Below, piece after piece: positions 27,667 through 31,050 of a DNA stretch of 32,208 nucleotides. Location: contig JAHBUR010000004.1 in assembly GCA_019637975.1 (NCBI GenBank), forward strand, positions 1 to 32,208, in the 5' to 3' direction. This DNA is from Bacteroidota bacterium (GTDB lineage Bacteria; Bacteroidota; Ignavibacteria; UBA10030; UBA6906). Position 1 is the first letter of the stretch, and each line of letters starts with the position of its first letter. Both the position numbers and the translations under genes were made by a program. A model generated the notes under the pieces. The model did not search any database. It saw only the letters and a program-made list of their open reading frames with translations, and was not told the DNA's origin.

Positions 27667-30600
27667 CTACCTGACCAACAACATCTTCTTCACCTGATTG
27701 AATGAACCAGCCATGAGTTTGTAGTAATATACACCGCTCGCCACATTGCCCGCATCCCACGTGACCGAATACCTGCCCGGCGCTTTCACCTCGTTCACGA
27801 GTGTGGCGACTTCACGGCCAAGAAGATCGTAGACCTTCAACAACACCCTCACCCCTTTCTCCCCTCTCCCTGAGGGAGAGGGGTCGGGGGTGAGGGAATA
27901 TCGAATCGTTGTAGTTGGATTGAACGGGTTCGGATAGTTCTGCTCAAGCCTGTATTCATTCGGCAAGGCTGATCCCTGATCGTCGCCGATTCCCGTGGCT
28001 TGGTTCTGCAACTCAAGCGTATCGTCTATTGTCCCGTTGTTGCCGATATCAACATAGACGATGAGGTCGCCGTGGGTGATGTCGCTCCAATCAGGAACGA
28101 AGATGTGCGACGTGTTTGCGGGTAAGGAGACATGAGAACGAACAAACCGGCCGAGTCCTGTTCCTGTGGCATGATGAAGCTCAATATCATACTCTTTGGC
28201 CGGGCCGTAGGAGATGAGTTTCAACCTGTTGCTATCCGGGTTCTCGATTCTCACCGAGTCATTCTGCGCAAGCTCAAGCGACCGCAGCGAGAAGAGTTTC
28301 TCTTGCGCGGTTTCATTGATGATAGTGACGAGACTTGCGGACTTCACGAACTGGTCGGGATTCACGACTGACACGCCGTTGTCAAAGAACAACCTGTCCG
28401 TTTGATTCTGTGCGGCGTTGCTTCTTGTGTAGCTAAACACCTTGTTGCCGGTTGCGAAGAGCGCCTTGACGGTATCGGCGGTGAAGTCACTCATGCTGAC
28501 GGAGTACCTTCCCGTGGGAAGCACATACCCATACGGCGGCGTTTCACTTCCGTCCATCATGATAAGCGGCGTTGAGCCGGGAATCTGCGCATAGACAGTG
28601 TCGTTGTCATAGCCCGTGATGTTCCCGACACTGTCTCTGATCCGTGTTGAGGCAAATACTGAACCGAGAATCTGAAGCTGCGTGTCGGCAAGAACGAAAG
28701 GCGAGTGTTGAATGCCTTGCTTCGGCAGTATCGGGTCGACCAAATAGTCCACCGCCGGATCCATGAGAAAGATCCCGGTGTTCCCTCCCCAGGTGGGCCA
28801 ATTCGGGGTGAACCAGGTTCCACTCCCGCCGTTTGCTGCGGTATCAAGCCAGATTCGGGCGTCGGAGGTGGGAAATGTATTATCGTAGATACTTACATGG
28901 AAGAGGGCTGGATTCACCGGGTCACGATCCACGCGATACGGCAAAACGGCGTGTCCTCCACTCCCACTGTTCTTCCGGATGGTCAACGTTCTGGGAACTC
29001 CGGTATCCTCGATCAGCATCTCCTTCAGCTCGTTCAGAGTTTCTGTCGGCGTCTTTCCCATTCCTACGCTAACTGTGTATGTGATGTGAGGATCTCCTAT
29101 CTGGTGAGTATATAGCTCATTGACGACAGTCTTGACGCCCGGAGTAGACGCCAGCGTGACAGGCTCCAGGAAGGGGGGGAAGTTGGGATACGTGCTTTGA
29201 AATTGTTGCCTGTAGGAAAAGGCAAGCGCATTTGATACTGCTATTCCAAAACAGGAGCCGAACCACCGTTTCTTCAGGGCATTCCACCACGCAAGAGCAG
29301 TAGGTGAGTAGATCCCCAATGTGGTGCTTACATAACAGGCATCAACACTGAACGTGTTCACCCACGATACCCAGTCGGGAAACTCTGCCGAGATCGCCGC
29401 TGCAAAAACAAAATTCCCCTGCCACTGGGAATACTGACTATTGATAAATGGGTCGGTCCCTTGATAGTCGAATTGCTGATACCATGCGGGCGGGAACATA
29501 TCAGACCGCGTATTGCTGAATGCCCACTGATCCTGCCCGGGTCTGAACGGCTCATACTGTCCGCTGCTGTCGCGGGTCAGGACGTATCCTTTAATCTTGA
29601 ACACCTCGCTCGTGTCCACGATGCTCTGTGCATTAAAGTCCATGATCCGTATCATGCATTTCTTGGAGAGGATGTCACGGGGAATATCCCATACATATCT
29701 TCCCGTGTCACCGCTGGCTACGTAGTCCACCACATCGAACGTGGTTCCTCCATCTACGCTGTAGGAGATTTCCAGCACCTGATCCCGTTTGCCACCACTC
29801 CATGTGATCGTGTCTTTCTGTCCGGCGATCCATCGCCTGTTTGCGCGAGGCTCCGTGATGCGGAGGCCAGGCAACCTGACCCACCATCCCTCCTGGAAAC
29901 CACCGTGGTTCCCATATCCAACGATGACAGAACCCGAACTATCCACTGCCGTGGCACTGGTGAGCGTCCACCCTGCAATGTTGAGGTTATATTCATTCTC
30001 CAGCACAGTCTGAAGATCCCGCGCACCGGAATCCGGGTCCCAGATGAATGCCCTTGTATTTCCCAATGTGCCGACGATGGTGTTGCCATCGGCAGATACG
30101 TCGAAGGCACGACTGGGACTTGTTACACCCTGGAGAACTTCCCATCCACCTGCCTGCGTCCATCGCGCCGCAATGGGTGACCCACCAAGGGTGGCGGTAA
30201 GCGAACCAACAATGACCGCTCCACCTTCCGAGACACCGTTTGCCGTGCTCCCGTAGTAGCCACCGGTTCCCAGCGACTGAAGCCCGCCACCATTGATTCT
30301 CCTGAATGCAACGGAATAGGGTTCAGTAGGACTATAGTACAATCTATCATCACCAACAATGACCGAGCCGTCTGGTGATATGTTAGTCGCAACACTTGAA
30401 TTGCCTCCGGCGAGATAACCAAGGGGTTGCGGTGAACCATTAATCCACATCAATGCTTCATAACGATTGTCGGCATTGCTCCCCATTCCCACAATCACTG
30501 AACCATCATCTGAAACTTTACGCGCCCATGCAAAATTCCAGTTTTGAGGTATTGCGAGGACGGTGAGACTTCCCCCTACCCAACGAATTGCATTAGCTGG

Positions 30601-30909
30601 ATTATACCCGACTATAAGAGAGCCGTCGCCTGAAACACCTTGTGCAAACCACGATTGGTTTTGATAGACAGGAAGAGCAACCATTCCCCCAGATTCAGTC
30701 CATCGAAACGGGTTAATTGAATTCCCTTTAACCACCCGACCATCAGCAGATACATTGCTAGCGTTGCTGATGGTCGACCCCGGCAGAAATCCCAAGCCAA
30801 CGAACCTTGCAGTATCCTGAGCGGTAAGCGCGGCGGGAGAGAACAAGAGACCGAAGACAATGATCTTCCACCGTTCGGCAGGAACGATGTTAGCACACGC
30901 ACGATTCAC
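27667..30909 (-). CDS. T9SS-exported protein: HAF repeats, papain-like domain, sorting domain
   Basis: The product has 1080 residues. I place the start at GTG 30909: a strong AGGAGGAGG stands 6 bases upstream, inside the slightly longer ATG frame that would begin at 30936. A signal peptide ends at LTAQ (about 31). Residues 50-345 hold about seven repeats of the form VS.DG..IVG......A..W, the HAF extracellular repeat. Residues 347-440 look like an Ig-like domain (ITEPRANRRWIAGQ...ITWSGG). Residues about 540-700 have a papain-like arrangement: C553 in WFGSCFG, H653 in GGHAVLPYRV and D676/N677 in YDNTFP. From 982 is a type A T9SS sorting domain (EQNYPNPFNPTTTIRYS ... DLLGREVATLVNE), with an in-frame repeat insertion. 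Confidence 0.85.
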   Translation of the reverse strand: MNRACANIVPAERWKIIVFGLLFSPAALTAQDTARFVGLGFLPGSTISNASNVSADGRVVKGNSINPFRWTESGGMVALPVYQNQSWFAQGVSGDGSLIVGYNPANAIRWVGGSLTVLAIPQNWNFAWARKVSDDGSVIVGMGSNADNRYEALMWINGSPQPLGYLAGGNSSVATNISPDGSVIVGDDRLYYSPTEPYSVAFRRINGGGLQSLGTGGYYGSTANGVSEGGAVIVGSLTATLGGSPIAARWTQAGGWEVLQGVTSPSRAFDVSADGNTIVGTLGNTRAFIWDPDSGARDLQTVLENEYNLNIAGWTLTSATAVDSSGSVIVGYGNHGGFQEGWWVRLPGLRITEPRANRRWIAGQKDTITWSGGKRDQVLEISYSVDGGTTFDVVDYVASGDTGRYVWDIPRDILSKKCMIRIMDFNAQSIVDTSEVFKIKGYVLTRDSSGQYEPFRPGQDQWAFSNTRSDMFPPAWYQQFDYQGTDPFINSQYSQWQGNFVFAAAISAEFPDWVSWVNTFSVDACYVSTTLGIYSPTALAWWNALKKRWFGSCFGIAVSNALAFSYRQQFQSTYPNFPPFLEPVTLASTPGVKTVVNELYTHQIGDPHITYTVSVGMGKTPTETLNELKEMLIEDTGVPRTLTIRKNSGSGGHAVLPYRVDRDPVNPALFHVSIYDNTFPTSDARIWLDTAANGGSGTWFTPNWPTWGGNTGIFLMDPAVDYLVDPILPKQGIQHSPFVLADTQLQILGSVFASTRIRDSVGNITGYDNDTVYAQIPGSTPLIMMDGSETPPYGYVLPTGRYSVSMSDFTADTVKALFATGNKVFSYTRSNAAQNQTDRLFFDNGVSVVNPDQFVKSASLVTIINETAQEKLFSLRSLELAQNDSVRIENPDSNRLKLISYGPAKEYDIELHHATGTGLGRFVRSHVSLPANTSHIFVPDWSDITHGDLIVYVDIGNNGTIDDTLELQNQATGIGDDQGSALPNEYRLEQNYPNPFNPTTTIRYSLTPDPSPSGRGEKGVRVLLKVYDLLGREVATLVNEVKAPGRYSVTWDAGNVASGVYYYKLMAGSFNQVKKMLLVR
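27846..27896. repeat. Palindromic repeat element inside the T9SS sorting domain
   Basis: Nested inverted repeats: outer arms CCCTCACCCC/GGGGTGAGGG and inner arms CCCCTCTCCC/GGGAGAGGGG with loop TGA. In the minus-strand gene it encodes TPDPSPSGRGEKG, which interrupts the sorting domain between IRYSL and VRVLLKVYDLLGRE without breaking the frame. Elements of this sequence, translating to LTPDPSP.GRGE-like peptides, are known as intergenic and intragenic repeats in many bacteria. Confidence 0.8.
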
Positions 30910-31050
30910 GGCAAACCTCCTCCTGAAAATTCTCATGGTTCAGATTTATCTCTGCTGCTCCTTACTTCAAGACAACCAGCCCTTTCACATCCACGAAACT
31001 GCCACTGTGTAGCCTGTACAAACTGAACGCAGGTTCGCAGCCAATTCGAT

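Follow-up and report, generated by a model that had tools for sequence, protein, structure and literature searches.

The window, by which we mean the whole 32,208-nt stretch of DNA analysed here, contains a 51-nt double palindrome that is translated within the T9SS C-terminal sorting domain (CTD) of a 1089-residue protein. We consider it quite probable that this element, here called family A, is a dispersed palindrome of the REP/RPE kind that has been captured recurrently and in frame at a length-tolerant hairpin loop of these domains, and that it has in part been copied between CTD paralogues.

The host open reading frame, P0001, lies on the minus strand (27667-30936; 1089 aa) and joins a HAF-repeat-containing N-terminal part to the C-terminal sorting domain. 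The C-terminus scores over the cut-off with both TIGR04183 (30.9 bits, cut-off 23) and PF18962 (Por_Secre_tail; 29.5 bits, cut-off 27), matches by which the domain is assigned to T9SS type A, and the LLGRE motif and the basic C-terminus KKMLLVR can both be read in its sequence. As modelled, the domain comprises 101 aa (27670-27972, minus strand); the AlphaFold2 model, built from an alignment of five sequences, has seven strands and a mean pLDDT of 78. When the model was compared with solved structures by Foldseek, the matches were weak and included the T9SS CTDs 8glk_D, mirolase 8qb1 and PorZ 5m11.

The palindrome occupies positions 27846-27896 and is read on the minus strand; its coordinates and length are exactly those of the original prediction, which had described it as a nested inverted repeat. 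Its 10-nt outer arms, CCCTCACCCC (27846-27855) and GGGGTGAGGG (27887-27896), pair perfectly, as do the 11-nt inner arms CCCCTCTCCCT (27861-27871) and AGGGAGAGGGG (27873-27883), which are separated by a single nucleotide; the arms are treated as unstranded, and the spacers of the element are TTTCT and TCG. The window has a single occurrence of the inner pattern CCCTCTCCC..GGGAGAGGG, against 0 expected from 100 shuffles. The P0001 frame remains open throughout the element, with neither a stop nor a frame break, and reads YSL-TPDPSPSGRGEKG-VRV-LLKVYD. The 51 nt encode TPDPSPSGRGEKG plus the strand ends L and VR, and the extra residues are located in frame between two strands, as had been proposed.

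In the AlphaFold2 model, the 13 residues TPDPSPSGRGEKG correspond to residues 28-40, a low-confidence, disordered loop that runs from the second to the third strand. With strand numbers inferred from the model and the motif, this loop would be Lβ2β3 in the published CTD numbering. Lβ2β3 is long and variable across published CTD structures, is much longer in mirolase and follows differing paths in the Por proteins (PMC11285876). The Lβ3β4 motif with its glycine was found to be necessary in an Open Biology 2024 CTD study (PMC11285876); in P0001, LLGRE, which matches Lβ3β4, and the C-terminus are both intact despite the palindrome. Given that Lβ2β3 is free in length, export is probably little affected by the insert. 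It had also been predicted that the palindrome sits in the most conserved export signal of the protein and tests how far that signal can bend. This placement is not borne out, as the element fills a variable loop and leaves the LLGRE motif and the C-terminus unaltered; it informs us more on where the signal may vary freely.

Homologues were sought in 60 genomes, mostly of the genus, family and order of the window organism. P0001 homologues were found in nine of these genomes, and the insert is missing from all of their readable sorting domains. In the nearest homologue, from the same genus (L110), the loop reads IQASGFT, as opposed to LTPDPSPSGRGEKGVRV in the window, so that 21 nt have given way to 51 nt. 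A clean, simple insertion of family A in P0001 was thus ruled out, since a loop of the L110 type has been replaced. The extra residues TPDPSPSGRGEKG are present as predicted, but on balance the loop is longer by 10 residues and not by 13 or 17. The P0001 domain is a member of the T9SS type A domains (Por_Secre_tail), but one with a 10-residue net extension from repeat DNA. Besides the comparison with close homologues, a search of the genome for further copies had been suggested, and family A copies were found in CTDs and outside recognised genes. The idea that a repeat element can be tolerated as coding sequence is supported by the homologues without it and by related copies inside and between genes elsewhere in the genome, and the same residues were looked for, and not found, in homologues without repeat character.

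At least 150 CTD matches were counted in the window genome, and 133 of them were parsed for the distance between two conserved motifs. The loop has its standard length in 117 of the 133 and is extended in 16, and the CTDs with longer loops include unrelated in-frame palindrome families. The half-element CCCTCTCCTCACAGGAGAGGG is found in the loops of L012 and L013. The GTAG-type palindrome GTAGGGACG...CGTCCCTAC and its relatives occur in the loops of L007, L009 and L010, with a further relative in L023 that causes no net change in length, and decayed-looking ones in L006 and L020, half lost and with the frame still open. The CCTGCCCGTCCGRCAGGCGGG palindrome lies in the loops of L011, L016 and L017; the extended loops further include those of L014, L024, L028 and L050. 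A different loop, between the last two strands near the C-terminus, carries the GCTTCGACAGGCTCAGCACA palindrome in L056, L069 and C10:102302 (L254). Palindrome-bearing CTDs concentrate on a few contigs that are rich in clustered sorting-domain genes (G000:C23, C31 and C49).

For family C, the CTDs L017 and L051 differ by exactly 21 nt, revealing an empty site without target duplication. A target-site duplication of the MITE type is absent at this site; the family A site is a replaced loop, in which such a duplication would not be recognisable. On its two sides, the 21-nt difference is bordered by 24 and 28 identical bases, in domains that share just 77% identity overall; a tract so perfect locally, between paralogues otherwise diverged, hints that short tracts are copied from one CTD to another.

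We monitored the distribution of four families across the window genome. Family A has five real copies, three of which are at the Lβ2β3-type CTD loop and two outside recognised genes; a match with two mismatches at C10:124424, in a gene whose sequence suggests an ABC-type ATPase, was discounted as due to chance. Family B has five exact copies (one in a CTD, four apparently intergenic), family C four (three in the same CTD loop, one in an hsdM gene) and family D three, all in the CTD loop near the C-terminus. CTDs make up ~0.85% of the genome yet hold 10 of the 17 copies of families A-D (binomial ~3e-17), a figure that overstates the enrichment, as families B-D were selected on the strength of their presence in CTDs, which biases the CTD share upward, and copies may share an origin. 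Under the same caveats of ascertainment and shared origin, five distinct CTD events versus one elsewhere give ~4e-10 for random placement in coding DNA. The hsdM gene (G000:C4:67917-69710, minus strand; HsdM_N and N6_Mtase; L252, L292) carries two different in-frame palindromic inserts, namely NCPPNGRAGNGD, which belongs to family C, and TTPSLPLLTKEGDGG, of the CCCCCTCC/GGAGGGGG type, the latter between two likely strands.

When 1.14 Mb were scanned without bias for perfect hairpins, those with stems of at least 11 followed the usual pattern, with ~27 per 100 kb in intergenic DNA versus ~1 per 100 kb in coding DNA, and the 44 CTDs covered gave one match, that of the window. The evidence from such a generic scan is weak for CTDs as a whole, and the case rests on the family-level counts, which carry some ascertainment bias. 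Among the 44 CTDs on the six largest contigs, the window's palindrome is the sole strong hairpin.

At least five genomes of the order, more distant members among them, have family A in this same loop. In an Ignavibacteriae MAG of the same genus (G002), the element is present at this loop in at least nine CTDs, two of which have it in the opposite orientation (C77 and C237), and same-loop variants were also observed in G001, G089 (DeMMO3_9), G093 and one Melioribacter MAG. Among the CTDs, the core is read in three frames, giving PSPSGRGE, LSSQERGG or LSQQERVF, and PLPLGEG. A further insert of 18 nt or similar is located within the family A element of the G002 CTDs C151 and C237. There, a second repeat with CTACGAGGCGG or its complement is nested in frame (L131 in C151, L153 in C237), which indicates that inserts pile up in one loop. 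Another G002 copy (L129, in C221) shows C-G replaced by T-A on both sides of the inner stem and has lost its outer 5' arm; this is a single case and could be a variant element.

Family A also occurs in frame in two related G002 histidine kinases (G002:C282:2967-3020 and G002:C18:72168-72221; L148, L150). The insert lies in a two-strand hairpin of the ATPase domain, reading ...MVQIAL-TPIPSPTGRGERG-VRVVVSD..., with the same L...VRV context as in the sorting domains. Five genomes together hold 31 strict family-A copies, of which 11 lie in the CTD loop, two belong to other clear genes and the remainder are intergenic or uncertain.

Several first captures are needed to account for the differing families, frames and orientations. 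The inserts of the window and of four G002 CTDs (C251, C114, C151 and C113) are 89-98% identical, versus 65-73% for the 105 nt downstream; the 48 nt upstream of the same copies, where the conserved NPFNPTTTIRY motif is encoded, show 75-92% identity. In a tree of 146 CTDs, built from few columns with the loop left out and poorly resolved, the labels were not clustered, with 7 changes against a shuffled mean of 7.6 for family A, 5 against 5.6 for family B and 3 against 2.9 for family C. The diverged flanks and the unclustered labels indicate that the inserts were not simply inherited with whole CTDs, and this route was rejected as unsupported by either line of evidence. These observations agree with repeated capture as well as with copying between paralogues that is limited to the loop, the tree being too poor to separate the two.

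The pattern might instead reflect tolerance, if palindromes land everywhere, if their excess in CTDs comes from at least 150 domains with the freest loop, and if CTDs with an insert were duplicated together with it. We regard this explanation as possible without favouring it. The variability of the loop in solved CTDs (PMC11285876) is in line with it, as are the inserts in other β-hairpin loops, in the G002 histidine kinases and in hsdM with its two different palindromes, and the inserts of L012 and L013, which resemble a single event. However, although CTDs represent such a small share of the genome, 11 of the 13 clearly intragenic strict family-A copies in the five genomes lie in this one loop, and a flank identity far below the insert identity, together with unclustered tree labels, is unlike whole-CTD duplication.

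If family A was recurrently captured and partly copied, as we favour, non-coding repeat DNA would be taken up in frame and translated, the tip of the Lβ2β3 β-hairpin loop giving way to it. Across many CTD genes, palindromes from different families would all be captured at this one loop, whichever way round they lie and in several frames. Selective survival would then operate, in that the loop is free in length and the inserts that persist would be those keeping strand ends such as L...VRV in frame. A captured insert may subsequently spread by short-tract copying between CTD paralogues, which is conceivable because the domain has at least 150 copies and its two most conserved DNA stretches border the loop on either side. 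The first capture may have proceeded through short matches between the element ends and CTD codons (TCCCTC/GTGAGG). The ends do resemble such codons, with TCCCTC for SL, GTGAGG for VR, ACGTCCCT for TSL and CAGGCTCA for AGS. Capture through short matches would account for a replacement instead of a clean insertion, and the replacement, taken with the resemblance between ends and codons, suggests such a route, which we put forward as an idea only.

A further reading, about which we are rather doubtful, is that T9SS CTDs are the preferred target and breeding ground of these palindromes. Several families would enter specific hairpin loops by sequence-guided capture, followed by short-tract copying among the hundred-odd paralogues, and the CTD family, not intergenic space, would be the main reservoir.

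A dedicated transposase was also considered as the mover, and this candidate was rejected: five Y1_Tnp genes were found, none of them flanked by families A-D. A solo Y1_Tnp gene (IS200-like; L140, G000:C28) lies between two related hairpins, GAACGATTC...GAATCGTTC, which are unrelated to families A-D.

A function of the palindrome at the RNA or DNA level, as an mRNA hairpin, an attenuator or a protein-binding site near the 3' end of secreted-protein genes, is improbable. The coding-strand RNA is predicted to form a very stable hairpin, folding at -47.4 kcal/mol compared to -26.4 +/- 3.4 kcal/mol in shuffles (z = -6.2), and the exchange of C-G for T-A on both inner-stem sides in C221 of G002 would suit such a function. 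However, most CTDs are without a palindrome, the palindromes that do occur are unrelated in sequence, and several are half lost with the frame open (L006, L020). Furthermore, no Rfam family matched the 51-nt palindrome at the gathering score; membership in an RNA family was discarded, as the miRNA and snoRNA matches were sub-threshold only, which is normal for any strong hairpin. Least probable is an assembly or binning artefact: the named source genomes are MAGs and repeats are assembly-prone, but the same arrangement is found in separately assembled genomes with differing flanks and variants, and always in frame.

Translated palindromic repeats have been described as RPE and WPE in Rickettsia and Wolbachia, where they are in frame and where some sites carry different families in orthologues (PMC2229807, PMC3767692). 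Family A is likewise an in-frame palindromic repeat translated within an ORF. RPE measure ~100-150 nt and are found in many unrelated genes, whereas the inserts described here are of 21-51 nt and are concentrated in one loop of one multicopy domain. Moreover, RPE are defined by their sequence group and a Rickettsiales host (PMC2229807, PMC3767692), while family A is 51 nt long and its host shares a genus with an Ignavibacteriae MAG.

Short palindromes within ORFs are also known as intragenic GTAG- and CGTC-tagged REPs, which have been proposed to be neutral in flexible loops and which occupy a near-same recB site across Xanthomonas species (PMC3733652). Family B begins and ends with GTAG/CTAC and is the only one of our families with GTAG; family A is untagged, beginning with CCCTC and ending with GAGGG. 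REPs have a high copy number and are mostly extragenic, whereas family A has the five copies of the window genome, three of them in CTDs. In addition, the REP-associated RAYT gene is flanked by the repeat, which is the case for none of the five Y1_Tnp loci with regard to families A-D. By its length, tag, copy number and want of a flanking RAYT, family A, as tested here, falls outside the RPE and REP families, but it works like them.

Palindromes of the CCCTCTCCC...GGGAGAGGG type are widespread in other phyla, where they have the same core plus a GGTGAGGG side arm and occur on cyanobacterial and proteobacterial plasmids and many viral contigs. Of 88 such sites, 64 fall outside long ORFs, and the others are read in various frames. 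We found no named family for these palindromes in the literature searched, nor anything relevant there on palindromes in T9SS domains or on the loop peptides. Protein-coding palindromes as such are known from RPE and intragenic REPs; what appears new is that a single loop of a multicopy sorting domain captures them recurrently.

Whereas protein-coding palindromes are known mainly from many genes of Rickettsia and Wolbachia, here unrelated palindromes collect in a single export-domain loop of free-living bacteria. The finding is also a warning that some of the differences in length among annotated sorting domains are due to repeat DNA. Finally, these CTDs offer loop variants of natural origin, together with internal empty-site controls, which may inform both on the movement of small palindromes in cases where no transposase is obvious and on the freedom that the T9SS signal has in this loop.
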